In this document: piece by piece, positions 8,398 to 25,623 of the stretch
How positions within the stretch are numbered: position 1 is the first letter of the stretch
Layout: each line of letters opens with the position of its first letter
Source: Alphaproteobacteria bacterium
GTDB lineage: Bacteria; Pseudomonadota; Alphaproteobacteria; Bin95
Length of the DNA: 32,088 nucleotides
Direction: 5' to 3'
Assembly: GCA_022827685.1 (NCBI GenBank)
Contig: JAJEIH010000034.1
Span: 1-32,088, forward strand
Program-made: the position numbers and the translations under genes
Notes under the pieces: model-generated
What the model was told of the DNA's origin: nothing
Database searches by the model: none
What the model saw: the letters and a program-made list of their open reading frames with translations, nothing else

Positions 8398-8416
8398 CGC
8401 GCCAGGGGCTGACACG

Positions 8417-8438
8417 GCCGGTCCGCCGGCGGGTTTTT
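8417..8438 (+). terminator. Possible weak terminator after the small membrane protein
   Basis: GCCGG (8417-8421) and CCGGC (8426-8430) form a 5-bp stem with a TCCG loop, followed by GGG and a five-T run at 8434-8438. The stem is short, so it may be partial or coincidental, since another plus-strand gene follows. Confidence 0.35.
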
Positions 8439-8526
8439 GCCCGACCTGTGGACCGGTCGAGGCATCCGGCATGCGGTCTTCCCCGTTGCTGATGTCGCCG
8501 CCGGCAACCGAGACAGGGCGAGCACC

Positions 8527-9090: not shown

Positions 9091-9134
9091 CCCGGATTTC
9101 CTGCCATTGCCGCGGCCGGCGCGGCGGTGAAACG

Positions 9135-9545
9135 TCAGAACTTCCGGTAGGCCTTGTAGAGGTCCACCATCGGGTGGTCGGGCGACATCTGGAACTTGAT
9201 CAGCATTTCCCGGGCGATCATGTCCCGGTCCTGCTGGTTGTCCGGCAATTCCATGTCCTCCGGAATCGCCACCCAGCCGTTGATGTTCCTGTCGAACACC
9301 GCAGCCTGGCCGTCGTCATAGCCCATATGGACGTCTTCCAGCCAGTTCAGGTCGTCCCAGCCCATGAACTCGATGTAGTCCCTCAGGAACGGGGTCAGCC
9401 TGTCATAGTCGGGCAGCAGGTTGACATCGTAGCGATAGCCGATGTGCTGCCCGATGGCCTGCTCGCGTTCGGAATCGATGCCGCCGCCCTTCAGGAAATG
9501 GTCGACGTCGTCGATGTTGGCGCCCTTGTATCCGGATCCGGCCAT
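9135..9545 (-). CDS. Unidentified acidic protein of 136 residues, last gene of the gmaS-mgs operon
   Basis: A 136-residue soluble, acidic protein I do not recognise. It is rich in Asp, Tyr and Trp (for example FMGWDDLNWLEDVHMGYDDG near residues 59-78) and has no cysteines or membrane segments. The ATG at 9543-9545 follows a GGAAGGGC ribosome-binding site and lies 17 bp after the mgsC stop, so it is very likely translated with the mgs operon. It could be a small accessory or assembly subunit of the N-methylglutamate synthase, but no motif supports a specific role. It ends 44 bp from the convergent unidentified gene at 8527-9090. Confidence 0.7.
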   Translation of the reverse strand: MAGSGYKGANIDDVDHFLKGGGIDSEREQAIGQHIGYRYDVNLLPDYDRLTPFLRDYIEFMGWDDLNWLEDVHMGYDDGQAAVFDRNINGWVAIPEDMELPDNQQDRDMIAREMLIKFQMSPDHPMVDLYKAYRKF

Positions 9546-9562
9546 CTTGCGAGCCCTTCCGT

Positions 9563-10939
9563 CTAGATGTGGTGGTAGTCCTTGACGCCGACCGTGTGGT
9601 CGGTGCCGGCAAGCGGAACCTGCGCAATCGCGGAAGCTTCCATCGTCAGCGCGGCCAGGTCTTCCGGCTCGAGGCTGTGGATGTCGGTCTTGCCGCAGGC
9701 GCGGGCCATCATCTGCGCTTCCATGGTCAGCGTGTGCAGGAAGTTATAGACGCGCTCCGCCGCTTCGTCGGGATTGAGCCGCCGGCGCAATTCCGGATCC
9801 TGCGTAGCGACGCCCACCGGACAACGGCCCGTGTGGCAGTGGTAGCAGGCGCCCGCTCGTACTCCCATCTCCGACGGGTAGTCGGCTTCGGGAATATCCT
9901 TGTTGCAGTTGAGCGCCATCAGTGCCGAATGGCCGATTGCGATGGCGTCCGCGCCGAGCGCGAGCGCCTTGGCCACGTCGCCGCCATTGCGAATGCCGCC
10001 CGCATAGACCAGCGAAATCTCGCCCCGCTTGCCAAGGTCGTCGATCGCCCGCCGAGCCTGGCGGATCGCGGCGATGCCGGGCACACCGGTCTCCTCGGTC
10101 GCCAGATGCGGGCCGGCCCCGGTGCCGCCTTCCATGCCGTCGATGTAAATCGAATCCGGGTCGCATTTCACCGCCATACGGACATCGTCATACACGCGCG
10201 CGGCGCCGAGCTTGAGCTGGATCGGGATCTGCCAGTCGGTCGCTTCCCTGATCTCGAGGATCTTGAGGGCCAGATCGTCGGGCCCCAGCCAGTCCGGATG
10301 GCGGGCCGGCGAACGCTGGTCGATACCGGCCGGCAGCGAGCGCATCTCGGCCACCTGGTCGGTCACTTTCTGACCCATCAGATGGCCTCCGAGTCCGACC
10401 TTGCAGCCCTGGCCGATGAAGAACTCGCACCCGTCCGCCAGCAGCAGATGGTGCGGGTTGAAGCCGTAGCGCGACTGGATGCACTGGTAGAACCATTTGG
10501 ACGAATAGCGCCGTTCGTCGGGGATCATGCCGCCTTCGCCGGAGCAGGTGGCGGTGCCGGCCATGGTGGCGCCGCGGGCAAGCGCAGTCTTGGCCTCGAA
10601 GGAGAGCGCGCCGAAGCTCATGCCGGTGATGTAGACCGGGATGTCCAGTTCCAGCGGCCGTTTCGCGCGGGGCCCAATCACCGTCCTCGTCTCGCATTTC
10701 TCACGATAGCCCTCGATCACGAAACGCGTCAGCGTCCCGGGCAGGAAGGTCAGGTCGTCCCAATGCGGAATCTTCTTGAACAGCGAGAAGCCGCGCATCC
10801 GGTAACGGCCGAGCTCCGACTTCACGTGGATGTCATTGATGACTTCAGGCGTGAAGATATGGCTCTTGCCGAGGATGTATTTTTCCTCGACTTCCAGCCT
10901 GGAAAAGCCGGTGTCGCCCGGGGTCGGATCGTCCAGCAT
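9563..10939 (-). CDS. mgsC: N-methylglutamate synthase subunit C (glutamate-synthase FMN domain, GlxD-like)
   Basis: A 458-residue protein corresponding to the FMN-binding central domain of glutamate synthase. A TIM-barrel block is visible (IYIDGMEGGTGAGP near 265-277; YAGGIRNGGDVAKALALGAD near 312-331). Cys365, Cys368 and Cys373 in GACYHCHTGRCPVGVATQ match the iron-sulfur cluster region of that family. With MgsA and MgsB it should use the methylamine group of gamma-glutamylmethylamide to make N-methylglutamate from 2-oxoglutarate, in the manner of glutamate synthase. The start at 10939 has an AGGAAGAG ribosome-binding site, 48 bp after mgsB. A GlxBCD-type glutamate synthase is the alternative; the adjacent gmaS and the mgd operon favour Mgs. 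Confidence 0.88.
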   Translation of the reverse strand: MLDDPTPGDTGFSRLEVEEKYILGKSHIFTPEVINDIHVKSELGRYRMRGFSLFKKIPHWDDLTFLPGTLTRFVIEGYREKCETRTVIGPRAKRPLELDIPVYITGMSFGALSFEAKTALARGATMAGTATCSGEGGMIPDERRYSSKWFYQCIQSRYGFNPHHLLLADGCEFFIGQGCKVGLGGHLMGQKVTDQVAEMRSLPAGIDQRSPARHPDWLGPDDLALKILEIREATDWQIPIQLKLGAARVYDDVRMAVKCDPDSIYIDGMEGGTGAGPHLATEETGVPGIAAIRQARRAIDDLGKRGEISLVYAGGIRNGGDVAKALALGADAIAIGHSALMALNCNKDIPEADYPSEMGVRAGACYHCHTGRCPVGVATQDPELRRRLNPDEAAERVYNFLHTLTMEAQMMARACGKTDIHSLEPEDLAALTMEASAIAQVPLAGTDHTVGVKDYHHI

Positions 10940-10987
10940 ATCGATCTCTTCCTGCGGTTTGACGGGGCTTCGCGAAGCCGGCCCTGC

Positions 10988-11830
10988 CTAGAGGACCAGC
11001 TTCCTCTCCGTCGGTTCGAGATTGTCGTAGCTCCAGAGCTGCTTGCCGGCGACGATCTTGGTGAAATGATCGACGCCCTTCTCCGGCAGCAGTTCGTACA
11101 TGGTCAGCTTGCGGGCCAGCCAGGCGCGGTCGAGATCGGTCAACTCCGCCGGGACCGCATCGACGCCCAGGTCCTGTATCTCGCCGCCGACATAGATGGT
11201 GCCGTCATACATCGAATCGCCGAGGTTCTTTCCGGCATTGCCGCAGACCACGATGCGCCCGCGTTGCATCATGAAGCCCGAAAACGCGCCGGTATCGCCG
11301 CCGACGATGATAGTGCCGCCCTTCTGGTCGATGCCGGTGCGCGAGCCGACCGACCCCTTGCACACGAGGTCGCCGCCGCGCAGCGCGGCGCCGAAGGTGG
11401 AACCGGCATTCTTCTCGATCACGCACACCCCGGCCATCATGTTTTCGCCGAATGACCAGCCGACGCGGCCGGAAATCCGGACATTCGGACCGTCGAGCAG
11501 GCCGCAGCCGAAATAGCCCAGGCTGCCTTCGACGATGAAATTCATCCGGTTGAGGATGCCGACGATCAGCGAATGCTTGGCGCCCGGATTCCGGAGCACA
11601 ATGCTGCCGTGGCCGGAATCCATCAGCTCGCGGATTTTCCGGTTGATTTCCGACGGCTCGAGGTCGGCGCAGTCGATTTCAGCGCGCCGGTTGAAGTCCA
11701 CATCCCGCGCGAAATGGTAGGCGAAACCGCCTTCGTTCCTGAGCGTGAACTTGGTCTTGATGTCCCGACCCGTCAGGGGCTCGGTATGCATGCCCATCTG
11801 GGCGGAGACGGAGTCGCTCACGCCTGCCAT
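10988..11830 (-). CDS. mgsB: N-methylglutamate synthase subunit B (GXGXG domain, GlxC-like)
   Basis: A 280-residue protein corresponding to the C-terminal beta-helix (GXGXG) domain of glutamate synthase. The repeated glycine-rich turns typical of that fold run from about residue 85 to 215 (for example GYFGCGLLDGPNVRISGRVG, GSVGSRTGIDQKGGTIIVGG, YVGGEIQDLG). It serves as the structural middle piece of the three-subunit synthase. The ATG at 11828-11830 overlaps the mgsA stop by 13 bp and is preceded by a GAGGAGG ribosome-binding site inside the mgsA coding sequence, which settles the start and implies coupled translation. Confidence 0.87.
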   Translation of the reverse strand: MAGVSDSVSAQMGMHTEPLTGRDIKTKFTLRNEGGFAYHFARDVDFNRRAEIDCADLEPSEINRKIRELMDSGHGSIVLRNPGAKHSLIVGILNRMNFIVEGSLGYFGCGLLDGPNVRISGRVGWSFGENMMAGVCVIEKNAGSTFGAALRGGDLVCKGSVGSRTGIDQKGGTIIVGGDTGAFSGFMMQRGRIVVCGNAGKNLGDSMYDGTIYVGGEIQDLGVDAVPAELTDLDRAWLARKLTMYELLPEKGVDHFTKIVAGKQLWSYDNLEPTERKLVL

Positions 11831-12753
11831 ACCCGGACCTCCTCGTCATAGGGGTCGGTGGTGTCGATCTCGTGCGGGATGATCGCCCTGATCGCCACTT
11901 CCTCCGACGCCAGCGCCACCATGTCGTCCGCCTCGTAGAGGACCATCGGCTTGGCGGCCATGGTGTCCTTGGCCATGCCGAGCTCGTTCCGCGTGGTAAT
12001 CAGGTATGTGAACACCCCGTCGATCTCGTGGATCGACCTCTGCAGGGAGTCTTCCAGCGTCATGCCCTTCTCGAGATTGACCGCGGTGTAAACCGCCAGA
12101 AGCTCCGAATCGCAGTCGCTGACGAAGCGCTGCCCGCTGCGCTCCAGCTGGCGGCGCATCAGCCAGTAATTGGTGATCTGGCCGTTATGGACCACCGCGA
12201 TGTCGTTATACGGATAGGCCCAGTAAGGGTGGGCCGAGCGGATATCGACATCCGATTCGGTGGCCATCCTCGTATGGCCGATGCCGTGTGTTCCCCTGAA
12301 CCCGCCGAGATCGTAAGCGCCGGACACGTCGGCCGCATCGCCCAGATCCTTGACCAGTTCGAGCGCGTTGCCGATCGACAGGATCTCCGTGCCCTCGATT
12401 TCCTCCATCTGGTCGGCAAGGTCCTTCATGTCGCCGTCATAGGCGATGCGGTAGCGGCTCGCATACTCCGTCGGTCCGTCCTGATTGAGGACGGTGACGC
12501 CGAGCTCGTCCAGCAACCCGTCAACGGCCGCCTTGCGTTCGGCGATCGCCCGGCGGATTCTCGTCCCGCGGCCCAGGTCTTCCTGCTCGGCCACCTTGAA
12601 CCGCATGATGTACTCGCTTGGCCCGGGCTCGCCGTAGATCGCGAAGCCGGTCGAATCCGGGCCGCGATGCTTGAGCGCCTGCAGCATGGCGGTCATTTCC
12701 CCGCCGATATTGCGGGCGCCGTCGCGGTAGATCAGTCCTGCAATGCCGCACAT
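11818..12753 (-). CDS. mgsA: N-methylglutamate synthase subunit A (class II glutamine amidotransferase, GlxB-like)
   Basis: A 311-residue class II (Ntn-type) amidotransferase domain like the N-terminal domain of glutamate synthase. The protein starts MCGIAGLIYRDG, so Cys2 becomes the N-terminal nucleophile after removal of Met. Other family blocks are KHRGPDSTGFAIYG (about 28-41), GHTRMATESDVDIRSAHPY and VVHNGQITNYW. It should release the amine from gamma-glutamylmethylamide for transfer to MgsC. The ATG is at 12751-12753 with a GGGAGAG ribosome-binding site, 28 bp after gmaS in the same orientation. A glutamine-using GlxB is the alternative. Confidence 0.88.
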   Translation of the reverse strand: MCGIAGLIYRDGARNIGGEMTAMLQALKHRGPDSTGFAIYGEPGPSEYIMRFKVAEQEDLGRGTRIRRAIAERKAAVDGLLDELGVTVLNQDGPTEYASRYRIAYDGDMKDLADQMEEIEGTEILSIGNALELVKDLGDAADVSGAYDLGGFRGTHGIGHTRMATESDVDIRSAHPYWAYPYNDIAVVHNGQITNYWLMRRQLERSGQRFVSDCDSELLAVYTAVNLEKGMTLEDSLQRSIHEIDGVFTYLITTRNELGMAKDTMAAKPMVLYEADDMVALASEEVAIRAIIPHEIDTTDPYDEEVRVWQA

Positions 12754-12781
12754 AGCATGTCTCTCCCTTCGAGCGCCGCGC

Positions 12782-14251
12782 CTAGGGCAGGCAGTTCAGA
12801 TAGGTTTCCATGTCCCACTCGGTCGTGGTGTGCAGGAAACGCTCCCATTCATCCCGCTTGTACTCTTCGTAAAGGCGGTACATGTCACCGGGCATGGCGG
12901 CCTGAATCACCTCGTCCTCGGCAAGCGCGTCCAGGGCGGCGCCGAGCGTCATGGGCAGCTTCTTGACCAGCTTGCCGGCCTCCATGGCCTGATAGATGTT
13001 GCGGTCTTCCGGTTCGCCCGGATCGATGTCGTTCCTGATGCCGTCATCGGCCGCCTTGAGGATCGCGCCAGCCATGAGATACGGATTCACCATCGAGTCC
13101 ACCGACCGGTATTCGAAGCGGCCCGGCGCGGATATGCGCAGACCGGTCGTGCGGTTCTGGTAGCCCCAGTCGGCGAAGACCGGCGCCCAGAAGCCGGTGT
13201 CCCACAGGCGGCGGTAGGAATTCACGGTGGAAGCGCCGATAGCTGTCAGCGCGCCCAGATGCTTGACGATGCCGCCGACCACCTGCAGCCCGACCTTGCC
13301 GGGCAGCTGCACATCGTCGGTGTCGGGCATGAAGGTGTTCTCCCCGCCCTTCAGATAGGTGAAGTTGTTCTCCATGCCGGGCAGCGGGTCGTTGCCGAGA
13401 GGATTCAACACCTCCTCGCCGCCGCGCCACAGCGAAATGTTGTGATGGCAGCCGGAAGCCGAGACGCCCATGAACGGCTTCGTCATGAAGCAGGCGATCA
13501 GGTCGAACTCGCGGGCGACCTGGGCGCAGATCTGGCGATAGGTCGTCAGCCGGTCGGCGGTGCGCAATGCATCGTCGAAGGTGAAGTTGAGTTCGAGTTG
13601 TCCGGGCGCGTCCTCGTGGTCCCCCTGGATCATGTCCAGGCCCATCGCGCGCGAATATTCGATCACCCGCATATAGACCGGACGCAGGCTCTCGAACTGG
13701 TCGATATGGTAGCAATAGGGCTTCGAGAAGCCGCCGTCCGGCTTGCCGTCCTCGCCCCGCTTCAGCCACATCATTTCGGGCTCGGTGCCGTGGCGCAGAT
13801 GCAGGCCCTCGTGATCTTCCTGGAACTGCGCGTGGATACGGCGCAGATTGCCCCGGCTGTCGGAGGTCAGAAAGGCGCCGGGATCCTCGCGCTCTTCCCG
13901 GTTGCGGAACAGGGTGCACCAGATCCGGGCGACCCGCTTGTCCCAGGCCAGCTGGCAGAAGGTTTCGGGCTCCGGGATGCCGACCAGTTCCTTTTCCTGC
14001 GGTCCGTAGCCCAGATATTCGCCATGCCTGTTCAGGAACAGGTTGACGGTCGCGCCATAGACCAGCTGGAAGCCCCGTTCAGCCACCGATTCCCAGTGGT
14101 CTGCGGGGATGCCTTTGCCGCATATCCGGCCTGTGATCGACACGAACTGGAGATACAGATACTGGATCCCCATTTCGTCGATCTTCTCGCGGACCTGCCT
14201 GACCAGATCGCCGCGTCCGTCCTGTTGCACAAAGGTTTCGATATCCATCAT
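12782..14251 (-). CDS. gmaS: Gamma-glutamylmethylamide synthetase (glutamine synthetase family)
   Basis: A 489-residue member of the glutamine synthetase family of the GlnT/GmaS type. It should join methylamine to the gamma-carboxyl of glutamate using ATP, giving gamma-glutamylmethylamide, the entry step for methylamine. Recognisable catalytic-domain blocks are the metal-ligand segment around GDHEDAPGQLELNF (about residues 212-225), ASGCHHNISLW (about 269-279) and the C-terminal block with RFEYRSVDSMVNPYLMAGAI. An ATG pair at 14246-14251 follows an AGGAGGGG ribosome-binding site. It is the first gene of gmaS-mgsABC, with phased decamer repeats 60-80 bp upstream. Ordinary type III glutamine synthetase would look similar; the operon context makes GmaS much more likely. 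Confidence 0.88.
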   Translation of the reverse strand: MMDIETFVQQDGRGDLVRQVREKIDEMGIQYLYLQFVSITGRICGKGIPADHWESVAERGFQLVYGATVNLFLNRHGEYLGYGPQEKELVGIPEPETFCQLAWDKRVARIWCTLFRNREEREDPGAFLTSDSRGNLRRIHAQFQEDHEGLHLRHGTEPEMMWLKRGEDGKPDGGFSKPYCYHIDQFESLRPVYMRVIEYSRAMGLDMIQGDHEDAPGQLELNFTFDDALRTADRLTTYRQICAQVAREFDLIACFMTKPFMGVSASGCHHNISLWRGGEEVLNPLGNDPLPGMENNFTYLKGGENTFMPDTDDVQLPGKVGLQVVGGIVKHLGALTAIGASTVNSYRRLWDTGFWAPVFADWGYQNRTTGLRISAPGRFEYRSVDSMVNPYLMAGAILKAADDGIRNDIDPGEPEDRNIYQAMEAGKLVKKLPMTLGAALDALAEDEVIQAAMPGDMYRLYEEYKRDEWERFLHTTTEWDMETYLNCLP

Positions 14252-14311
14252 TTCGCCGTCCCCTCCTGGCGCGCTCTTCCAAGGCCTACCGCATCGCCCG
14301 GGCCATTGACT

Positions 14312-14329
14312 TGACCAATACGAACCATT
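14312..14329. promoter_or_regulatory. Two phased decamer repeats upstream of gmaS
   Basis: TGACCAAT (14312-14319) and GAACCATT (14322-14329) are exactly 10 bp apart. They lie 61-78 bp before the gmaS start and match the element ahead of tmm and amt. Confidence 0.6.
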
Positions 14330-14470
14330 ACACTTGCCCTGACGAAACGGCGTCTGCTAGCATAATCGGCATTGTAAGGATCAAGGTGTCATTGGCAATT
14401 GCGAGTTGGACAACCGGTTCAGACCGACAACGCAGCCAGACTGAACGCTTCCTATCTTGTACTGCTTTGC

Positions 14471-14508
14471 GACCAATTGCAAACCAATGGTGCCAATGTC
14501 AACCAATT
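14471..14508. promoter_or_regulatory. Four phased decamer repeats upstream of the GntR-type gene
   Basis: Four copies with a CCAAT core have their first C at 14473, 14484, 14493 and 14503, giving spacings of 11, 9 and 10 bp. They lie 45-82 bp before the GntR gene start, a position that would suit autoregulation. Confidence 0.6.
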
Positions 14509-14552
14509 TAGCGCAACATCGGAGCTTTCTGTGAATTCTGGAGTGTGCAGCC

Positions 14553-15293
14553 ATGGATGACGTGCGCGGGTCCGTGCAGGATTTCCAGCCGGTTTCCGGC
14601 CCGAGCCAGGGCGAGCGCGGCCGCCATGTCGGGCAGATCACGACCCAGCTGCGCGAGGCCATCCGCAGCGGATTCTACGTGAACGGCGACCAGCTACCCG
14701 CCGAGCGCGAGCTCGCCGAGCGTTTCGACACCGCGCGCAGCACCGTCCGCAAGGTCTTGCTCAATCTGGAGACCGAGGGACTGATCGAACGGCGGGTCGG
14801 CAGCGGCACGTTTGTGCGGTGCGACGACATATCGATGAGCGCCACGCACGACATCGTCAGCAGCGTCAGCCCGCTGGAACTCATCGAAGCGCGCCTGGCG
14901 GTCGAGCCGCACATGATCCGTCTCGCGGTGCTCAACGCGACAGCCAACGAAATCAAGATGCTGGGATCGATCCTGGACGATCTCGAGCAGTGCCGGAATG
15001 ACAAGGAGGCCTTCACCCGCCACGACAGCATGTTCCACGAATGGCTCGCCAGGAGTTCCAAGAACCCCCTGTTGCTCCACCTCTACCAGCAGATCAACGC
15101 GGTTCGCGGCCATGACCAGTGGGACGCCATGAAGAACAAGATCCTGTCTCCCGAGGAAATCGACGAATACAACCGCCAGCACCGTGCAGTGTTCGAGGCA
15201 ATCCAGCGCCGGGACATGGTCTCTGCGATCAGGCACATCAACGAACACCTGGAGAAGGCCCGCCGGGACCTGATGGGCGCCGCGTCGGTATAG
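14553..15293 (+). CDS. GntR-family transcriptional regulator of the FadR/FCD type
   Basis: A 246-residue regulator. The N-terminal winged helix (about residues 25-90) holds the characteristic GntR block LPAERELAERFDTARSTVRK (48-67) followed by the wing GLIERRVGSGTFV. Residues about 105-235 form an all-helical FCD ligand-binding domain, with metal-binding-type Asp/His positions around RHDSMFHEWLARSSKN and QHRAVFEAIQRRD. The ATG at 14553 follows a GGAGTG ribosome-binding site. It diverges from gmaS and is convergent with tdm. It probably represses or tunes methylated-amine genes in response to an amino acid or acid metabolite; the ligand cannot be read from the sequence. Confidence 0.88.
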   Translation: MDDVRGSVQDFQPVSGPSQGERGRHVGQITTQLREAIRSGFYVNGDQLPAERELAERFDTARSTVRKVLLNLETEGLIERRVGSGTFVRCDDISMSATHDIVSSVSPLELIEARLAVEPHMIRLAVLNATANEIKMLGSILDDLEQCRNDKEAFTRHDSMFHEWLARSSKNPLLLHLYQQINAVRGHDQWDAMKNKILSPEEIDEYNRQHRAVFEAIQRRDMVSAIRHINEHLEKARRDLMGAASV

Positions 15294-15323
15294 AGAAACA
15301 GCGACTGCCGGCGGCGGGTCGGA

Positions 15324-17696
15324 TCAGGCTCGAACCCGGGATTTCGTCGGATCGTAGAAGGGGAAGGGCACCACACGCGCCGGAATGCGTTTCTGGTGGC
15401 CGTCCAGCTTGCCGACTTCGACGGCGGTCCCCTCCTCCGACGCCGTCACGTCCATTCGGCACAGCGCGATGTTCTTGCGCAGGACCGGCGAGCGCATTGC
15501 GCTGGTGATGACCCCGACCTGGGCGCGGCCGATATGCACGCAATCGCCGTGCGCCGCCGCCTCCTGGCCTTCCAGTTCCAGCCCGACCAGCTTGCGCTGC
15601 GGCGATTCCTTCCGCCGGACCAGGGCTTCGCGCCCGATGAAGTCGTCCTCCTTCGTCTTCAGCGGCACGGTGAAGCCGATGCCGGCCTCGAAGGGATCGA
15701 TCTGGTCGTCGAACTCGTGGTTGGCGAAGACGAGGCCGGCCTCGATGCGCACCATGTCGAGCGCTTCCAGACCGAAAGGCGAGAGCCCGTGCGGCTCGCC
15801 GGCCGCCCAGATGGCGTCCCATACGCCGGTCGCGTCGCGCGGATGACACCACACCTCGAAGCCCAGTTCGCCGGTATAGCCGGTGCGCGAAACGATGACC
15901 GGAATGCCGTCATGACCGCCGATCCGCCCGATCGCAAAGCGGAACCAGCCGAGCTCCTCGATAGTGGGCTGGGCGGGCGGCGTCCACACCACGTCCTTGA
16001 GGATATCCCGGCTCTTCGGCCCCTGGACGGCCACGTTGTGCAGCTGGTCGGTCGAAGAGCGAACCCAAGCATTGAGCCCGAGCTTCGCCGCCTGATCGCG
16101 CATCCACTCGCCGCCATAGTCGCAGCCGCCGATCCAGCGGAAATTATCGTCGCCCAGCCGGAAGGCGGTGCCGTCATCGATCATGCCGCCGGTCTCGTAG
16201 CACATGGCGGAATAGACCACCTGGCCGATGGCGAGCCGGCGCATGTTCCGGGTGAGCACCCATTGCATCAGCCGCTCTGCGTCCGGCCCCAGCACTTCGA
16301 ATTTGCGCAATGCCGAGAGGTCCATGATCACCGCGCGCTCACGGCACGCCCAGTATTCCTCCAGAGCGCCCCGGTTGGTGAAGCTGCTGGCCAGCCAGTA
16401 GCCGTTATATTCGGTGAAGTTCCGCGTATGCTTGGAAAACCGGGCGTGGAAACCGGTTTCCCTGGTCAGCTTGGGGTCGGCGTCGGGGGTCATGCGAAAG
16501 GCCACCGCTTTGGAGAAGACGTTTTCGCGCGGGTACACCCGCACATGGATGTCGGTCGGATTCCAGCCGTTGGCGGCGTCAATATCGTCCGGGCACGCCG
16601 ACGATACGCAGACCATATCGGTCAGCGCCTGCAACAGCACATAGTCGCCGGGGCGCGACCAGGGATTGTCATGGAACGCCTGGTTGGCGTCGTCGAACCC
16701 GGTATTGAAGAAGAAGTTCAGCGCCATCCAGCCGCGGCGCGGCGCGATCCCGAACGGCGCCAGCACCCCGTTGAAATTGTCCGTGCAGTTGACGTGGCCG
16801 GGATAGCCGACGTCGTCGTAGTACTTCGCCGTGCAGGCATACAGGAAACTGTCGTGCCGGCCGCAGGTGTCGCGGATCACCTCGACCATCGGCTGCAGGT
16901 CCTGATCGAAGCATTTCGACAGCAGGCCCGGCGCCGGATAGGCGTTGCCCATCAGCGTGCGGGTCCCTGTGGCGTCCAGACAGAGTTCGCGCCCCCGGTC
17001 GAGGCCGGCGAGGGTGAATGCCTGGAAGTCGGAACACTGCCGGCCCTGCACGTCGATAATCTGGATGAACTCGCCCGCCTTTACCTCGTAGGCTTCGGCC
17101 GTGCGCGCCGCGATGCGCCGGTCGATGCGGGGCTCGGCCAGCGGCTCCGGCGCCGGGTGCTCGGTCGGCGCAACCGGGTTGGCGCGGGTAACGAATATCT
17201 CGATCGGCGTTGGCGGATCCTGCCGGTCGACGCGCATCGGGCCGCCGGGGGCCGCGACGAAGCAAACCAGCGGCCGTTCGGCGGTGAATGTCGCCTCGCC
17301 ACCCGGACGCGAATCGCCACCAAAGACGTCGATCGACCTTGCCGCCCGGATATCGAGGCCGCGCCGCTGCAGGGAACCGGCAAGCGACCGCGCCGTCCGG
17401 TCATCGCCGCCCAGTATCGCTTTCAGGCCTTCGGCGGCTCCGTTCGACGCGGCGCCCAGCGCTTCCGTGTCCGCCGAGCCGGTCGGCGCAAAGGCCGATA
17501 TTTCGGCGGTCTGCCGCCCTTCCCGGTCCCGAACCGTGACGGTATCGCCCGGCTCCAGAGAAAAGACCGTCGCGCCTCCGCCCTCGGCGACATAGCGTTC
17601 GACCCCGAAACCCAGAACAGGCACGCCCGGCAGCAGGACGGCGCCGGCCGCCGAGGGCCGTTGCACGAGCGGCGGTGCGCTTCTCTCGTCAGTCAT
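15324..17696 (-). CDS. tdm: Trimethylamine N-oxide demethylase (TMAO aldolase), DUF1989 plus GcvT domains
   Basis: A 790-residue protein with an N-terminal DUF1989-type region (about residues 15-380) and a C-terminal aminomethyltransferase (GcvT-like, tetrahydrofolate-binding) domain (about 410-785). This pairing is characteristic of Tdm, which splits TMAO into dimethylamine and formaldehyde; the GcvT part is thought to capture formaldehyde. Cys288, His301, Cys304 and Cys368 form a Cys-X12-His-X2-Cys-X63-Cys pattern, which agrees with the zinc site I recall for the Methylocella enzyme. The ATG at 17694-17696 overlaps the permease stop by 4 bp (ATGA), so import and cleavage of TMAO are encoded by one operon. 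Plain glycine-cleavage T-protein is excluded by the extra N-terminal domain. Confidence 0.9.
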   Translation of the reverse strand: MTDERSAPPLVQRPSAAGAVLLPGVPVLGFGVERYVAEGGGATVFSLEPGDTVTVRDREGRQTAEISAFAPTGSADTEALGAASNGAAEGLKAILGGDDRTARSLAGSLQRRGLDIRAARSIDVFGGDSRPGGEATFTAERPLVCFVAAPGGPMRVDRQDPPTPIEIFVTRANPVAPTEHPAPEPLAEPRIDRRIAARTAEAYEVKAGEFIQIIDVQGRQCSDFQAFTLAGLDRGRELCLDATGTRTLMGNAYPAPGLLSKCFDQDLQPMVEVIRDTCGRHDSFLYACTAKYYDDVGYPGHVNCTDNFNGVLAPFGIAPRRGWMALNFFFNTGFDDANQAFHDNPWSRPGDYVLLQALTDMVCVSSACPDDIDAANGWNPTDIHVRVYPRENVFSKAVAFRMTPDADPKLTRETGFHARFSKHTRNFTEYNGYWLASSFTNRGALEEYWACRERAVIMDLSALRKFEVLGPDAERLMQWVLTRNMRRLAIGQVVYSAMCYETGGMIDDGTAFRLGDDNFRWIGGCDYGGEWMRDQAAKLGLNAWVRSSTDQLHNVAVQGPKSRDILKDVVWTPPAQPTIEELGWFRFAIGRIGGHDGIPVIVSRTGYTGELGFEVWCHPRDATGVWDAIWAAGEPHGLSPFGLEALDMVRIEAGLVFANHEFDDQIDPFEAGIGFTVPLKTKEDDFIGREALVRRKESPQRKLVGLELEGQEAAAHGDCVHIGRAQVGVITSAMRSPVLRKNIALCRMDVTASEEGTAVEVGKLDGHQKRIPARVVPFPFYDPTKSRVRA

Positions 17697-19687
17697 GCCA
17701 GCCCCAACACCTTCCTGCGTTCCCGCGCCCAGGCGTTGATCAACTGGTCGGCGATCAGGCCCATGCAGGCGACGCAGAGTCCGACGACCAGAGACTTGCC
17801 CGCATTGTTATCAGCCTTGGACCGGAAAATCTCCTGGCCGAGATCGGTGGTGCCGATGAAGGCGGCGATCACCACCATGAACAGCGCGTACATGATCGTC
17901 TGGTTGATGCCCAGCATGATCGCCGGGAAGGCAAGCGGCATGCGTACCTTCCACAATACCTGGCGCGGCGTGCAGCCCGACGTGATCGCCGCCTCGACGA
18001 TGTCGTGCGGCACAGTCCGCAACCCGAAGATCGTCAACCGGGTCGTCGGGATCGTCGCGTAGATCACGATTGCCATGATGGCGGCGAAATCGTTGACGTT
18101 GAACAGCATGATCGCCGGGATGAGGTAGATGAAGGATGGGAAGGTCTGGAAAGTGTCCAGGATCAGTTCCACGATCTTCGTCCGCCTGGGCCCGGACGCC
18201 GCCCAGATGCCGACGATCGACCCGAATATCACGCAGACGATCACTGCGAAGCTGACCATGTAGGCAGTGATAAGCGTCCGCTCCCAGAAGCCGGCAAAGG
18301 CGAGATAGAGCGCGAACAGCGCCTGGATGCCGGCGACCTTCCAGCCGCCGTAATACCATCCGAGCGTGACCGCGAAGACCAGCAGCGCCGACCAGGGCAG
18401 CAGCAGGTAAAGGTCGCGCATAGGGATCAGGACATGCACCAGGAGCGTGGCCTTGATCAGTTCCAGATAGTCGAACGCATAGACGATGATGTAGTCGATC
18501 AGCGCGTCCCACATCGGCGCGGTGGTGATCGAAAGCGATTTCGGCCAGAGCTGCAGCGCCGGAATGAACGCCGCCAGAATGTAGGAGACGGCGACGACCG
18601 CGGCGCCGGCCGTGAGGAAGGGATGGCGGACATGGAACGGCCCTTCCCGCATATGCTCCGGCTCCTTCCGCGCCCAGGCCTGGCTCAGGCGGTCGAGGAT
18701 GATCGCCATGAACACGATCACCACGCCGATCTCCAGCGCCTGGCCGATCCACAGCGAGCGCAGCCGGTTCAGGAGGTCGTGGCCCAGCCCCTTGGCGCCG
18801 ACGAAGGACGCGAGGACGACCATCGCCAGGCACAGCATGATGACCTGGTTGACACCGACCATCAGGGTCGGCCGCGCCGCCGGCAGTTCGACCTTCCAGA
18901 GCATCTGGCGTCCGGTGCAGCCGGCCATGATGCCGGCCTCGCGGACTTCCGGCGACACTCCCTTCAATCCCAGAATGGTCAGCCGCGCCATCACCGGGAA
19001 GGCGAAGATGATCGTGGCGATCGTGCCCGCCTTGTGGCCGATGCCGATAAAGATGGCGACCGGGATCATGTAGGAGAAATGCGGCAGCGCCTGCATGACG
19101 TTGAGGACCGGCCACAACAGCGTCTCGAACCAGCGCCTCTTGTAGGCCAGGATGCCGAGCGCAACGCCGATCGCGCCGGCGACCGGCGCCGCCACGAGAA
19201 CTACCGACAGGGTGACCATCGACAGTTCCCATTTGCCGAAGATCGCCATATAGGCGAAGCAGACGCCTGCGATGATCCCGAGCTGCCGGCCTTGCAGATA
19301 CCAGCCGAGCACGATCGCCAGGCCGGTGACCGCGATCCAGGGCAGCCCCGGAACCGAGTCCGAGAAACCGGCGACCAGGATCGCCTCGACGAAATCGAGC
19401 GGATAGTCGATCAGGTTGGCGATGGCCCGGGACATGTCCCGGAAGGTGAGGAGACCGAATATCTCCTCCGTGCGCAGGACCCCCACGATGACGTTGATCC
19501 AGCCGACGAACGGCGCCGACCACGCTTCCGGAACAGCCCGCAGCCAGTCGGGCAGCCACGGCCCGAGCAGGAGGACGAACACGAACGGCGCCAGCAGGAA
19601 GGCGGCGACACGGAGACCGGATTGCCCGCTGCCGGCCACCCAGCGGCGGACCGCGAGTTCGCCGCTGGGAACTGCGGCTTCAGCCAC
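17693..19687 (-). CDS. tmoV: TMAO ABC transporter permease, two permease units fused in one chain
   Basis: A 664-residue inner-membrane protein with many transmembrane segments and an internal duplication. Each half ends with the permease coupling-loop motif: first half GIMAGCTGRQMLWKVELP (about residues 252-269), second half AITSGCTPRQVLWKVRMP (about 100 residues from the C-terminus), each followed by a similar hydrophobic block. Single-unit relatives such as ProW are roughly half this length, so one chain probably supplies both halves of the channel. The GTG start at 19685-19687 overlaps the ATPase gene by 8 bp (GTGGCTGA). The transporter belongs to the quaternary-amine uptake class; the TMAO assignment rests on fusion length, on tdm next in the operon and on nearby tmm. 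Confidence 0.83.
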   Translation of the reverse strand: MAEAAVPSGELAVRRWVAGSGQSGLRVAAFLLAPFVFVLLLGPWLPDWLRAVPEAWSAPFVGWINVIVGVLRTEEIFGLLTFRDMSRAIANLIDYPLDFVEAILVAGFSDSVPGLPWIAVTGLAIVLGWYLQGRQLGIIAGVCFAYMAIFGKWELSMVTLSVVLVAAPVAGAIGVALGILAYKRRWFETLLWPVLNVMQALPHFSYMIPVAIFIGIGHKAGTIATIIFAFPVMARLTILGLKGVSPEVREAGIMAGCTGRQMLWKVELPAARPTLMVGVNQVIMLCLAMVVLASFVGAKGLGHDLLNRLRSLWIGQALEIGVVIVFMAIILDRLSQAWARKEPEHMREGPFHVRHPFLTAGAAVVAVSYILAAFIPALQLWPKSLSITTAPMWDALIDYIIVYAFDYLELIKATLLVHVLIPMRDLYLLLPWSALLVFAVTLGWYYGGWKVAGIQALFALYLAFAGFWERTLITAYMVSFAVIVCVIFGSIVGIWAASGPRRTKIVELILDTFQTFPSFIYLIPAIMLFNVNDFAAIMAIVIYATIPTTRLTIFGLRTVPHDIVEAAITSGCTPRQVLWKVRMPLAFPAIMLGINQTIMYALFMVVIAAFIGTTDLGQEIFRSKADNNAGKSLVVGLCVACMGLIADQLINAWARERRKVLGLA

Positions 19688-20714
19688 CGGCACCGGACTC
19701 CCGGGAGAACAGCACGTCCAGAATGCGCGTGCGGCTGACAACGCCGACGATCCGGTCGTCATCGTCCGCGACCCGCAGCGGAACTTCACTTGTGACGATC
19801 ATCCGTGCGACATCCGCCACCCTGTCGGTCCGTCGCACCACGCTGTCCGACAGAGGCTGGCCGTCCGTCGGCGCTTCCATCACCGAGGCGATGGTCAGCA
19901 GCTTTTCGCGGGCGACGTCGCGCGTGAAGTTGGCGACATAGTCGTCGGTGGGCCGCGTCACCAGCTCTTCCGGCGTGCCGATCTGCACGATCCGGCCTTC
20001 GTTCATGATCGCGATGCGGTCGGCAAGCCGGATCGCTTCGTCGAAGTCGTGGGTGATGAAGGCGATCGTCTTCTGCAGCATCGTCTGCAGACGCAGGAAC
20101 TCGTCCTGCATTTCGCGCCGGATCAACGGGTCGAGCGCGGAGAAGGGCTCATCGAGGAACCAGACATCCGGTTCGACCGCCAGCGAACGCGCAATGCCGA
20201 CACGCTGCTGCTGGCCGCCCGACAGCTCGCGCGGGTAGTAGCGCTCGCGCCCCTTGAGCCCGACGAGCTCAATGATCTCCAGCGCCCGGTTCTCCCGTGT
20301 CGCGCGATCGACGCCCTGCACCTCCAGCGGAAAGGCGACGTTCTGCAGCACCGTCCGGTGCGGCAGCAGGGCGAAATGCTGGAACACCATCCCCATCTTG
20401 TGGCGGCGGATTTCAATCAGCTCCCGGGCAGGAATCTTCAGCAGGTCCTGACCGTCGAACAGCACTTCGCCGGCGGTCGGTTCGATCAGGCGGGACAAGC
20501 AGCGCACCAGCGTGGACTTGCCGGAACCGCTGAGTCCCATGATGACCAGGATTTCGCCGGGGAAGACTTCGAGGCTGGCGTGGCGGACAGCAGGGATATA
20601 GCCGTCGGCCTCGATCGCGTCGTCTGGGGGTGCGCCGCCATGCGCAGCCAGAAAGCCTTCCGGGTCCCTGCCGTACAGTTTCCAGACGCTCCGGCAGGCG
20701 ATCTTGGCGTCCAA
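19680..20714 (-). CDS. tmoW: TMAO ABC transporter ATP-binding protein with C-terminal CBS-like region
   Basis: A 344-residue ATPase of the glycine betaine/proline (ProV/OpuAA) class. Walker A (GLSGSGKST) lies at residues 60-68, followed by the signature LSGGQQQRVG, Walker B (VWFLDEPFSALD) and the switch His in ITHDFDEA. The last 80 or so residues resemble a CBS domain (VVRRTDRVADVARM ... RIVGVVSRTRILDVLF). The frame stays open upstream to 21062, but that part would cross the decamer repeats. I prefer a TTG start at 20712-20714 because GGGGAGG lies about 5 bp upstream and the protein then begins like ProV (MDAKIACRSVWKLYG). It is the first gene of tmoW-tmoV-tdm, divergent from tmoX. Confidence 0.82.
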   Translation of the reverse strand: MDAKIACRSVWKLYGRDPEGFLAAHGGAPPDDAIEADGYIPAVRHASLEVFPGEILVIMGLSGSGKSTLVRCLSRLIEPTAGEVLFDGQDLLKIPARELIEIRRHKMGMVFQHFALLPHRTVLQNVAFPLEVQGVDRATRENRALEIIELVGLKGRERYYPRELSGGQQQRVGIARSLAVEPDVWFLDEPFSALDPLIRREMQDEFLRLQTMLQKTIAFITHDFDEAIRLADRIAIMNEGRIVQIGTPEELVTRPTDDYVANFTRDVAREKLLTIASVMEAPTDGQPLSDSVVRRTDRVADVARMIVTSEVPLRVADDDDRIVGVVSRTRILDVLFSRESGAGG

Positions 20715-20821
20715 ACCTTCCTCCCCATTCGGCCGCCCCGAGACGGCGAGTTTACGGTACGACTTTTTCCCGGACCGGGAAACGCCATACCGCCGCTGGC
20801 GCGGACCGATAATGCCATTGT

Positions 20822-20859
20822 GAACCATTTCCAACCATTTTTTACTATTACGAACCTTT
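20822..20859. promoter_or_regulatory. Four phased decamer repeats upstream of tmoWV-tdm
   Basis: GAACCATT (20822), CAACCATT (20832), TTACTATT (20842) and GAACCTTT (20852) lie exactly 10 bp apart. The set is in the tmoW/tmoX divergent region, 108-145 bp before the proposed tmoW start, and is the longest strictly phased example in the window. Confidence 0.65.
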
Positions 20860-20867
20860 ATCTTCGG

Positions 20868-20898
20868 TTGACATCTTGCCTTTGAAATGGATGATAGA
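20868..20898 (+). promoter_or_regulatory. Possible tmoX promoter
   Basis: TTGACA at 20868-20873 is a perfect -35 box. GATAGA at 20893-20898 is a poor -10 match with a long 19-bp spacer. If it is used, the downstream decamer pair would fall within the early transcript. Confidence 0.3.
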
Positions 20899-20923
20899 CT
20901 CCAGGCATCGAACTGAAAGTAAG

Positions 20924-20941
20924 ATTGGTTCAAATTGGTTC
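20924..20941. promoter_or_regulatory. Two phased decamer repeats just upstream of tmoX
   Basis: Two identical ATTGGTTC copies at 20924-20931 and 20934-20941 are 10 bp apart. They end 28 bp before the tmoX start codon, closer to the gene than at the other loci, a position that would favour repression. Confidence 0.65.
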
Positions 20942-20969
20942 GATGCAGTGCGATCGAGGGAGGATCGTC

Positions 20970-21913
20970 ATGCGAAAGATTGCGAAAGCAGCCGGCGCGG
21001 CCGCATTTCTGATGGTCGGCGCCCAAGTTGCCGCCGCCGATACGATCAACATTCCGCTCCACAACTGGTCCAGCCAGCTCGTGGGCGCCCGTATCGTCGG
21101 CAACATGCTGGAGATGGTGGGCGAGAAGGTCGCCTACGTGTCAGCGGACAGCCAAGTCGTTTACACTTCGATGTGCGAAGGCGACATCCACCTCGTGCAT
21201 GAGGTCTGGCAGGGCGCCTTCGGCGTCAGCTACGAGAAACAGCTCAACGCGGGCTGCGTGATCACGGCGACGACCCATGAAGCCAAGACCCGCGAGGAAT
21301 GGTGGTATCCGGCTTATGTCGAGGAGGCCTGCCCCGGCCTGCCCGACTGGGAAGCGCTGAACAACTGCGCCGAAATGTTTGCGACCGCCGCCACCAAGCC
21401 GCAGGGCCGCTTCCTCGCCGGCCCGGTGGACTGGCTGAAGCACGACCAGGAGCGCGTCGACGGGCTCGGCATGAACTTCAAAGTGGTGAACGCGGGCTCG
21501 GCCGCCGCCCTGTGGGCCGAGTTGGAATCGGCCAGCAAGCGCAAGGCGCCGATAGTGCTGTTCAACTGACGCCGAACTTCATCGAGGCGCTCTACGAGGG
21601 CAAGTTCGTGGAATTTCCGGCGTATGAAGAGGCCTGCCGCAAGGATCCCAGCTGGGGTCTAAACCCGGACAAGGCCTATGACTGCGGCAACCCCAAGGAC
21701 GGCTATCTGAAACTCGGCGTCTGGAAGGAGTTCCCCGAGAAATGGCCGAAAGCCTACAAGGTGCTGCAGAACATGAGCTTCTCGAACCTTGACATCGCCG
21801 TCATGGCCAAGCTGGTGGACGTTGACAAGATGGAGGCGGACGCCGCAGCGGCGAAGTGGATGGAAGACAACGAAGCCAAGTGGAAGCCCTGGGTGGACGC
21901 GGCCGGAATGTAA
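20970..21913 (+). pseudogene. tmoX: TMAO ABC transporter substrate-binding protein, interrupted by a one-base frameshift
   Basis: A periplasmic binding protein of the quaternary-amine (OpuAC/ProX) class. Residues 1-23 are a signal peptide (MRKIAKAAGAAAFLMVGAQVAAA), and mature sequence begins with DTINIPLHNWSSQ. The start at 20970 follows GAGGGAGG. The reading frame hits TGA at 21567-21569 after residue 199. The rest of the family sequence continues from 21569 in another frame (TPNFIEALYEGKFVEFP ...) to a TAA at 21911-21913. One extra G after 21568 would turn TGA C into TGG AC, restoring FNWTPNF and a 314-residue protein. Both parts are otherwise intact, so this is either a sequencing error or a very recent mutation. 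It would supply TMAO to TmoVW. Confidence 0.85.
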
Positions 21914-21941
21914 GGTCGGGAGCCCACGGCTCGATATCGCG

Positions 21942-21973
21942 AAGGGCCCGCCAGCGATGGCGGGCCCTTTTTC
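21942..21973 (+). terminator. Rho-independent terminator after tmoX
   Basis: GGGCCCGCCA (21944-21953) and TGGCGGGCCC (21958-21967) form a perfect 10-bp stem with a GCGA loop, followed by five T (21968-21972). It lies 31 bp after the tmoX stop and separates tmoX from the lyase gene. Confidence 0.92.
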
Positions 21974-22050
21974 TTGCGTGCTTGTCTTCGACGGCGGCGC
22001 GAATATTTGCCGGGGTGCCTCACCCGCTTCAACCGACAGGGTAATGGATC

Positions 22051-23502
22051 ATGACGGTAATCCTGGAAACGCGAGCCGATTTCACGCTCGAAACCGCGCG
22101 GCGGGTGGCCTGGGCCGGCGAAGGCGTCGAACTCGGCGCCAGGGCTCTCGCGGCAATGCGGCAGGGGCGGCATCGGCTGGAACGCATTCTCGACCATGAC
22201 CCCGAGGTTACGATCTATGGCGTGACGTCGGGATACGGCCAGTTCGCCCGCAAGAGGCTTACCACAGCGGAACGGGAACGATGGGCCGGGATGTCGCCGG
22301 CCCGTATCGCCGCCTCCTGGGGCGATCCCCTTCCCGAACGCGTCGTGCGCGCCATCGTCCTGGCGCGCCTGGCCAACTTTGTGGAAGGACATGCCGCGAT
22401 ATCGCCGGAAATCGCCCTGGGCGTCGCCGCCATGCTCGACGAGGACAGCTTGCCGGCGGTCCCGGCGCAAGGTCAGGGCGGGGCGGGTGAGATCCTCTCG
22501 CTGAGCCACCTGTTCGCCGGTCTGGCGGAACGGATGAAGCCGGCGGCCAAGGATGTGCTGTGCCTCATCAATGGATCGCCGGCGGCCACGGGGCTTGTCG
22601 CCGATGCCGCGCTTGCCGCCGCCGGGCGCCTGGAACAGGCGGCGCAGGTCTTTGCGCTCTCCTTCGAGGCTTTCAACGCGCCGCTGGGCCATCTCGATCC
22701 CGCCTTGGACGGTTACTGGAACAATCCCCATGACGGCTGGGCGCTCCGGCGTCTTCGCGAACTGGTGGGCGCCGGCCACGGCGGAAAGCGGCGTCCCTAC
22801 CAGGCGCCCGTGAGCTACCGGATCGTGCCGCGGATGCTGGGCCAGGCCCGGCGAGCGGCGGCCATGGCCGAGGAAGTCGCCTTCGAGTCGCTTCAGGCGG
22901 TGACGGACAACCCGGTATGGGCCGCCGCCATCGACGAGGACCACCCCTTCGGCCGCTTCATATCGACGGGCGGCTATCACAACCCCCATGCGGTGCTCGC
23001 GATGGATGCACTGACCGCCGCCTGCGCCAATCTCTGCGTTCTTGCCGGACGTCAGGGCGCGAAGCTCCTGGACGGGGCCGTTTCGCTGCTTCCCGACCAG
23101 CTCACTACCGCCGAACCGGGCGGCGAGGGCCGCCGCGCCCATATGGGAGGCCTGCCGATGGCCCAGACCGGATATGAAGAGGAAGCCCGTCTCTACGCCC
23201 AGGCCACGCTGCTCCCCGGAAGCGAATCCGGCGGCTTCGGCCAGAACGACGTCGCGAGCCCGGTGTTCCTCGCATGGTCCAAGCAGGACCGCGCCGGGCG
23301 GTGCCTCGACATGGCGCTCGCCAGTCTCGTGCCGATTGCCCTGCGCGCTTTCGACGTCACCGGCCGCCCTGTTCCGCCGCAACTGGCCGGACTCGAGGCC
23401 GCAGTCCGGGAGATTGAGCCGGACCTGGCGCGGCCCATGGCGCTGGGTCCCGTGGTGGCATCGATTGCCGGGGCCTTGCGCCGCGACATCTATCCATCGT
23501 GA
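22051..23502 (+). CDS. Histidine-ammonia-lyase-like protein lacking the MIO serine
   Basis: A 483-residue member of the aromatic amino acid lyase superfamily (HAL/PAL). Family blocks include YGVTSGYGQFA (56-66), RLANFVEGHAA (106-116), the MIO-region relative GQGGAGEILSLSH (141-153), INGSPAATG and SYRIVPRMLG. In active HAL the Ala-Ser-Gly triplet cyclises to the MIO electrophile. Here it is Gly144-Ala145-Gly146, so the serine is absent and normal MIO cannot form. The C-terminal GQEDH-type block is also changed (GFGQNDVASP). It is therefore unlikely to be ordinary HutH. Ergothionase, a lyase that removes trimethylamine from ergothioneine, belongs to the same superfamily. With tmm and a quaternary-amine transporter adjacent, a TMA-releasing betaine lyase is a reasonable guess, not shown. 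The ribosome-binding site is weak. Confidence 0.8.
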   Translation: MTVILETRADFTLETARRVAWAGEGVELGARALAAMRQGRHRLERILDHDPEVTIYGVTSGYGQFARKRLTTAERERWAGMSPARIAASWGDPLPERVVRAIVLARLANFVEGHAAISPEIALGVAAMLDEDSLPAVPAQGQGGAGEILSLSHLFAGLAERMKPAAKDVLCLINGSPAATGLVADAALAAAGRLEQAAQVFALSFEAFNAPLGHLDPALDGYWNNPHDGWALRRLRELVGAGHGGKRRPYQAPVSYRIVPRMLGQARRAAAMAEEVAFESLQAVTDNPVWAAAIDEDHPFGRFISTGGYHNPHAVLAMDALTAACANLCVLAGRQGAKLLDGAVSLLPDQLTTAEPGGEGRRAHMGGLPMAQTGYEEEARLYAQATLLPGSESGGFGQNDVASPVFLAWSKQDRAGRCLDMALASLVPIALRAFDVTGRPVPPQLAGLEAAVREIEPDLARPMALGPVVASIAGALRRDIYPS

Positions 23503-23524
23503 TGTGAACGAAGCGGCGGAGGCG

Positions 23525-24279: not shown

Positions 24280-25623
24280 TCAATCGTCCCGGAGATAGCT
24301 CTCCATCGAATCGTCCAGGGCATCGACCCAGGCAGTGTGGTGGATCGGGGCCATGGTGCCGGTCATCACCGACTTGTACGCATTGTCCCGGAACGTCATG
24401 ATGTTCTGCTTCTTGTGCTTCTTCCACTGGAAGAAGGCGTCATTCGCGCCGTCCACGTCGAAGCTCGGATAGTCGGTGTCGGCGATCAGTTCCCTGACAT
24501 AGTCGCCCTGATAGCGGATCGCGGCATAGTCGTCCTCGAGGGCGTCTTCCCTGGCCACCCGTTCGGCAACATCGGCGGCCCGGGCGTCACGGTCCGGCAC
24601 CTGGATGCGGCCCATGATGACGTCGCGCGCATACCAGGCCTGAGCGTCGAACATGTTGAAGGTATACCACTGGTCCTGCATGCCGAGGTAGAACAGCTTC
24701 GGATTGTCCACCCACACGACGCCCTTGTAGAGGTCGGCCGTCGCCAGCCGGTTGGCGCTCCGAAGGCGGAGCTCCGGCGCCATGAAGGGGAAGTAGTGGA
24801 GATAGCCGGTGCACAGGATGATGGCATCGACATCTGCCTTCGAGCCGTCCTTGAAGGTGCAGGTGTTGCCCTCGACCTTCTGCAGCAGCGGCACCTCTTT
24901 CCAGTTGTCCGGCCAGTCGAAGCCCATGGCCGCGGTGCGGTGGCTGACGGTGACGGACCTGCAGCCGTATTTCCAGCACTGGGAGCCGATGTCCTCGGCC
25001 GAGTAGCTGGTGCCGATAATCAGGATGTCCTTGTCCCTGAACTCGACGGCGTCGCGGAAATCATGGGCGTGCAGCACACGGCCGTTGAACCGGTCCAGGC
25101 CGTCGAAATGCGGCACGTTCGGGGTCGAGAAATGACCGGTCGCGACGACGACATGATCGAAGCTCTCGGTGGCCTCCTCGTCAGTCGCGAGATTGTGCGC
25201 CGTGACGGCGAACTGTCCCGTCGCGTCGTCATAGTCGACCCGCCGGACCGTCGTCCGGAAGCGGATCGCATCGCGCACGCCCGCCCTTTTCACCCGGCCC
25301 TCGATGTAGTCGAACAGCACCTCGCGCGGCGGGTAGGAGGCGATCTGCTTGCCGAAATGCTCCTCGAAGGTGTAGTCCGCGAACTCCAGTCCCTCCTTGG
25401 GGCCGTTCGACCACAAATACCGGTACATCGAGCAATGGACCGGCTCGCCGTATTCATCCAGCCCGGTGCGCCACGTGTAGTTCCACAAGCCGCCCCAGTC
25501 CGCCTGTTTCTCGTAGCAGACGATTTCCGGCACGTCCGCCCCGCCGTCCTTCGCCGACTGGAACGCCCTCAACTGGGCGAGGCCGGACGGCCCCGCACCG
25601 ATCACAGCAACCCGTTTGCCCAT
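24280..25623 (-). CDS. tmm: Trimethylamine monooxygenase (flavin-containing monooxygenase)
   Basis: A 447-residue bacterial flavin-containing monooxygenase. FAD motif GAGPSG lies at residues 9-14, the FMO fingerprint F179-X-G181-X3-H185 ([11 protein letters not shown]) follows, and the NADPH-binding GTSYSAED is at 204-211. Long blocks typical of Tmm are present: [53 protein letters not shown] and a C-terminal [20 protein letters not shown]. The enzyme oxidises TMA to TMAO with NADPH and oxygen in the cytoplasm, and relatives also act on dimethyl sulfide. The ATG at 25621-25623 gives the normal length. A perfect pair of decamer repeats lies 83-102 bp upstream. The product would be the substrate of Tdm encoded nearby. 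Confidence 0.95.

Follow-up and report, generated by a model that had tools for sequence, protein, structure and literature searches.

To our knowledge, few routes that lead from environmental betaines to trimethylamine (TMA) are known, and most of the betaine-to-TMA routes described either proceed anaerobically or start from choline, carnitine, or glycine betaine. Four catalytic residues of the Treponema denticola ergothionase are reportedly essential. Like its counterpart from Burkholderia sp. HME13, this enzyme (structure 6S7J) combines the histidine ammonia-lyase (HAL) fold with the lack of the MIO group (PMC13405746). The same fold is found in HutH, the canonical HAL, whose MIO arises at an Ala-Ser-Gly triplet, and in the MIO-carrying aminomutases and tyrosine ammonia-lyases (2OHY and 2O6Y). 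On the amine side, the closest described system is the Tmm/Tdm/TmoXWV pathway of TMA catabolism in marine bacteria; no TMA-producing lyase was found as a component of this system in the literature searched. Here we describe a MIO-less HAL-fold lyase gene that lies within such a cluster.

The DNA analyzed (the window) spans 32,088 nucleotides and corresponds to positions 1 to 32,088 of the forward strand of contig JAJEIH010000034.1, from an Alphaproteobacteria bacterium (GCA_022827685.1). An open reading frame on its plus strand (22051-23502, ATG start) encodes a protein of 483 amino acids that belongs to the PF00221 superfamily (201.6 bits; gathering score, 27.3). Against the hutH model TIGR01225 it reached only 139.2 bits (cut-off, 539.15), and it lay far under every curated NCBIfam lyase and aminomutase cut-off, so no curated model was passed. 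Family members are probably misannotated as histidine ammonia-lyases. The gene is full length and intact, with dN/dS values of 0.13 to 0.18 in eight pairwise comparisons. Purifying selection of this strength (dN/dS of about 0.15) rules out a pseudogene and, together with the retention of the carboxylate-binding arginine and the Tyr53 equivalent described below, makes it very probable that the product is a live enzyme.

Active-site residues were compared in an alignment of 106 proteins, among them 94 family members and canonical HALs, using what we take to be the roles (catalytic, carboxylate, and amine-site) of the residues of Pseudomonas putida HAL. The sequence-only reading had reported Gly144-Ala145-Gly146 (22480-22488) at the MIO triplet, with serine changed to alanine. 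The letters are as reported, but the serine is deleted rather than replaced: Ala145 and Gly146 align with HAL Ala142 and Gly144, and the residue corresponding to Ser143 is missing (A-S-G to A-G) in 94 of 94 family members. The Ala-Ser-Gly triplet of HutH is thus absent, and with the serine deleted the protein is unable to form MIO. Judged from its sequence, the lyase is a working enzyme that is unable to use this group. The second motif, GQNDV, was read correctly; it comprises Gln398-Asn399-Asp400 (23242-23250), in place of HAL Gln-Glu-Asp, followed by Val401. Next to the triplet, HAL Asp145 is replaced by Glu147, which is invariant across the family (94/94). Equivalents of HAL Tyr53, Asn195, Gln277, Arg283, and His330 are retained in nearly all members. 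These include the candidate catalytic base Tyr56 (22216-22218; Tyr53 in HAL), invariant in all 94 members, and Arg257 (22819-22821; Arg283 in HAL, the ligand of the substrate carboxylate), kept in 93. The HutH set of Tyr280, His83, and Glu414 is not retained. Tyr280 is Val254 in the window lyase and valine or isoleucine across the family, His83 is Ile86 at a position that varies, and Glu414 is Asn399, with asparagine or aspartate in most members. The HAL/TAL/PAL selector pair Ser82-His83 is changed to Arg-Ile or Gly-Ala and also varies across the family.

An AlphaFold model of the lyase (pLDDT 89.5, pTM 0.91) matched ergothionase 6S7J with a VIA Z of 37.3 (rmsd 2.3 over 465 residues). The scores for tyrosine aminomutase (Z 37.3) and HAL (Z 36.6) were tied with this value, and choosing among the three enzymes by fold comparison was abandoned. 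In sequence, the lyase was no closer to characterized ergothionase (approximately 19% identity) than to HAL or tyrosine aminomutase: phmmer gave an E value of 6e-4 for ergothionase versus 1e-20 for aminomutases, with HALs also ahead of ergothionase, and a profile search gave 3.8e-24 versus 2.3e-42 for a HAL. The MIO aminomutases and tyrosine ammonia-lyases figured among the top matches of both phmmer and Foldseek but, unlike the lyase family, they carry MIO. In a quick tree with SH-aLRT support only, from which the T. denticola ergothionase sequence was left out, the family formed a single clade, separate both from canonical HutH and from other MIO-less proteins, of Burkholderia and of a 2.7-Mb genome of the same class (G098). 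The family shares with HutH the fold, the equivalents of Tyr53, Asn195, Gln277, and Arg283, and in some relatives a position behind hutU; it differs in the deleted serine, the three replaced residues, and its separate clade, and its members coexist with true hutH in many genomes. As proposed for ergothionase, the lyase may expel TMA from an alpha-trimethylammonio acid, and it may work like that enzyme. Since the lyase shows no specific sequence kinship to ergothionase, and the window genome lacks the back half of the ergothioneine pathway (thiourocanate hydratase above cut-off and thiohydantoin desulfurase), we do not class it as an ergothionase. The MIO triplet is likewise lost (GSVGYLTH) in a gene of Burkholderia pyrrocinia annotated hutH (L185, 7944-9437), which has an amine ABC transporter on one side and hutC on the other. 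It falls outside the lyase family in the tree and was not accepted as a member or as a known ergothionase; it may encode a betaine lyase or an ergothionase of a separate kind.

The contexts of other family members bear on the type of substrate. A member in Rhizobium jaguaris lies ahead of an OpuC-type betaine ABC transporter, and genes for ErtE (575 bits; cut-off, 520), UbiD, and UbiX are nearby. UbiX and UbiD genes adjoin a member on two Rhizobium plasmids (L168, 7107-10381, and L186, 9539-11748); ErtE is intact in R. jaguaris, and R. tropici matches by a fragment only. In G098, five tandem members stand directly behind genes for an S-methylthiourocanate hydratase (890.8 bits; cut-off, 880), found only in this genome among the 385 sampled from the class, and a desulfurase that fits the S-methyl thiohydantoin desulfurase model best (409 bits, under the 450 cut-off), and an oligopeptide-type ABC transporter lies behind the array. 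Elsewhere, an aldehyde dehydrogenase gene lies directly upstream of a member (L098 and L101), carnitine-dehydrogenase-like and BKACE genes are nearby (L101 and L102), or a Rieske ferredoxin and a reductase form the context (L084 and L122). Most other members stand alone amid housekeeping genes, and most neighborhoods are uninformative. Members from records titled Chloroflexota and Oceanobacillus (L085 and L118) group with alphaproteobacterial ones, and these records are probable binning errors or contamination.

The betaine- and ergothioneine-type pathway genes beside several members, the MIO loss, and the co-occurrence with tmm and tdm described below make a TMA-releasing betaine lyase, as the sequence-only reading had proposed, the best reading of the family, and we regard this chemistry as likely. 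MIO would be unnecessary, as in ergothionase, since TMA leaves readily by itself whereas ammonia does not. A lyase or hydratase acting on an unrelated, non-betaine substrate would accommodate a fold that matches HAL, aminomutase, and ergothionase equally, neighborhoods that mostly are silent on betaines, and the failure to pass any curated model, and MIO loss excludes only a MIO-type ammonia lyase. The conservation of the carboxylate arginine, the tyrosine base, and the Asn/Gln amine-site residues across the family, and the presence of betaine- or ergothioneine-type genes beside members in unrelated lineages, make such a substrate improbable.

As had been claimed, the lyase gene is flanked by an OpuAC-type binding-protein gene upstream and by tmm on the other side. 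The latter (24280-25623, minus strand) scored 835 bits against NF058570 (cut-off, 675). The cluster further includes tdm, encoding the TMAO demethylase (15324-17696, minus strand; NF053776, 1250 bits; cut-off, 1100), and tmoW/tmoV-type permease and ATPase genes (17693-21062, minus strand; TIGR03416, 371 bits for 17693-19789; cut-off, 363). The permease and ATPase genes belong to a choline/TMAO-type ABC transporter and are conserved in L027, L028, and L192. N-methylglutamate synthase-like genes (mgs) for the glutamate-synthase, GXGXG, and amidotransferase parts (9563-12753, minus strand) and a GntR regulator gene complete the cluster, which corresponds to the marine Tmm/Tdm/TmoXWV system. The binding-protein gene (tmoX-like; 20967-21913, plus strand; PF04069) is split by a frameshift near 21567, where 1 bp is deleted relative to congeners L027 and L028. 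This may be a sequencing error, or the gene may be a recent pseudogene.

Between tmoX and the lyase gene lies a terminator-like hairpin with a T-run (21944-21972, plus strand; -27.8 kcal/mol, z -4.8), which also is present in L027 and L028. It was absent from the list produced by a consensus terminator scan, probably because greedy stem extension consumes the T-run. The hairpin closes tmoX, which probably makes cotranscription of the lyase gene with tmoX unlikely; an operon with tmoX therefore was disfavored, and the lyase gene appears from the sequence to be monocistronic in the window.

The order tmoX-lyase-tmm was found in the window genome (G000) and in G006. In G001 tmoX and the lyase gene are kept together and the contig ends after the lyase gene; three species thus share the position on its tmoX side. 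The position next to tmm or tmo genes was not found in G197, G004, or G005. In G197, blastn against locus L192 showed that the segment 21982-23513 (plus strand) is absent from an otherwise colinear tmoX-tmm site: flank 21981 is followed by 23514 within 92 bp. This genome carries an 80% lyase homologue elsewhere. With its congeners G004 and G005, the window shares homology over exactly the lyase gene (22046-23504 or 23516), and the same limits, 22046-23504, were obtained with L029. A conserved leader of approximately 30 bp (CGYTTCAACCG...GGATC; 22017-22050, plus strand) moves along with the gene in both tmoX and hutU contexts. On this comparative evidence the lyase gene is a mobile single-gene cassette. 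A larger difference also was seen: compared with window positions 8403-23521, G004 and G005 (L188 and L189) lack the whole mgs-tdm-tmo-lyase block, the gap falling between the ammonium-transporter and tmm regions, and this block apparently behaves as a mobile island.

By raw count, every one of the 10 genomes with a lyase homologue of at least 70% identity carries tmm and/or tdm (G299 and G272 have tdm only and G005 has tmm only). The sequence-only reading would have been contradicted by close homologues in genomes lacking TMA genes; none was seen at this identity, but some genomes with members at no more than 55% identity have neither tmm nor tdm (G098, G134, G257, and G108), and most relatives are nowhere near TMA genes. 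At the genus level, tmm was present in 3 of 10 family-bearing genera versus 9 of 266 others (Fisher P 0.006, uncorrected for kinship or habitat). The neighborhood of tmm itself could be coincidental, a mobile cassette having landed in the convergent tmoX-tmm gap with no role in TMA metabolism. The L029 homology confined to the gene, the G197 site without the insert, the upstream hairpin, and the scarcity of TMA genes near most relatives are what such an event would leave behind. The tmoX side kept in three species, the tmm and/or tdm genes in all 10 close-homologue genomes, and the genus-level tmm association speak against it, and we judge it highly improbable. The TMA link of the lyase thus is partly supported. 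The hairpin, the empty G197 site, and the relatives and distant members without TMA genes count against it, and among the evidence for a TMA-releasing betaine lyase the tmm neighborhood is the weaker.

The acid side offers a better substrate clue than the tmm neighborhood, and on genomic context it would point to hercynine. In G004 and G005 (89 to 90% identity), a GntR/UTRA regulator gene, hutU, and the lyase gene are clustered, and the lyase gene is translationally coupled to hutU: its GTG start overlaps the hutU stop (GTGA). The order hutC-hutU-lyase, with a gap of roughly 120 to 135 bp, was found in L085 and L123 (83%). The coupled urocanase is canonical HutU (944.7 bits) and did not pass the thiourocanate hydratase models; the urocanase of the window genome likewise is HutU (950 bits). 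This gene lies on another contig (L069, 293-2158; C102), and the window genome has neither hutH nor hutI above cut-off. No canonical hutH was found in G000, G004, or G005, and none of the eight genomes of the window genus has hutI above cut-off. As hutU often adjoins hutH, a position beside it could be a routine site of insertion, and the hutU neighbors perhaps were inherited from hut operons.

Ergothioneine, one of the substrates put forward in the sequence-only reading, is disfavored in the window genome, which lacks thiohydantoin desulfurase and whose urocanase is a canonical HutU. Of the family genomes examined, G098 alone has the desulfurase. Turnover of self-made hercynine was ruled out by the absence of EgtD from the window genome; any hercynine used must therefore come from outside. 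We infer that a substrate fitting both the hutU and the TMA contexts would yield urocanate plus TMA and hence would be hercynine. This is weakened by the loss of His83 and Glu414, the HAL residues that presumably contact the imidazole, and, as regards use of the HutU product, by the lack of hutI above cut-off across the window genus. Hercynine as the main substrate in the window clade is therefore possible rather than probable, although no other single compound fits better.

The same chemistry may act on another betaine (tryptophan betaine, tyrosine betaine, S-methylergothioneine, or others), the hutU linkage being secondary. The altered and variable selector pair Ser82-His83, the replacement of Glu414, the lack of urocanase in G299 (a 78% homologue genome that also lacks tmm and has tdm), and contexts that differ by clade (L084/L122 versus L101/L102) all fit this explanation, as do the 24 diverged copies in G098. 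The coupling of the closest relatives to canonical hutU and the S-methylthiourocanate hydratase beside five members instead favor an imidazole product, and we consider another betaine unlikely, though a serious contender. The G098 copies, all MIO-less and several in tandem arrays (L046, 4582-11957; L072; L176-L184), share their genome with seven urocanase-type genes. The same genome also has an Ala-Ser-Gly-bearing HAL relative together with a thiohydantoin desulfurase (598 bits) and a thiourocanate hydratase (963 bits), both above cut-off (L174, 6814-11606), a MIO-type lyase in a thiourocanate pathway.

Our preferred explanation is a MIO-independent betaine TMA-lyase that most likely converts imported hercynine to urocanate and TMA; taken as a whole, we put it just short of an even chance. 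The leaving group, the substrate, and the fate of the products are inferred from contexts and residues. In this scheme the HAL-fold lyase would remove trimethylamine from an alpha-trimethylammonio acid to leave a trans-acrylate, with Arg257 holding the substrate carboxylate and Tyr56 taking the beta proton. Hercynine (histidine betaine) would be imported and then split; HutU would receive the urocanate, and Tmm and Tdm would handle the TMA. The search turned up no family member that had been assayed biochemically, and the mainly open literature that it covered yielded no hercynine lyase, thiourocanate hydratase, or lyase in tmm clusters.

We tentatively propose, with somewhat less confidence than in that explanation, an undescribed family of MIO-free TMA-lyases for histidine-type and other amino-acid betaines. 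The window lineage would possess a hercynine lyase joining HutU to Tmm, and the 24 copies in one small genome perhaps serve a range of betaines. If this is true, amino-acid betaines would enter TMA, TMAO, and urocanate metabolism through this family aerobically and without a cofactor, a route that would span marine, sponge-associated, and rhizobial Alphaproteobacteria.
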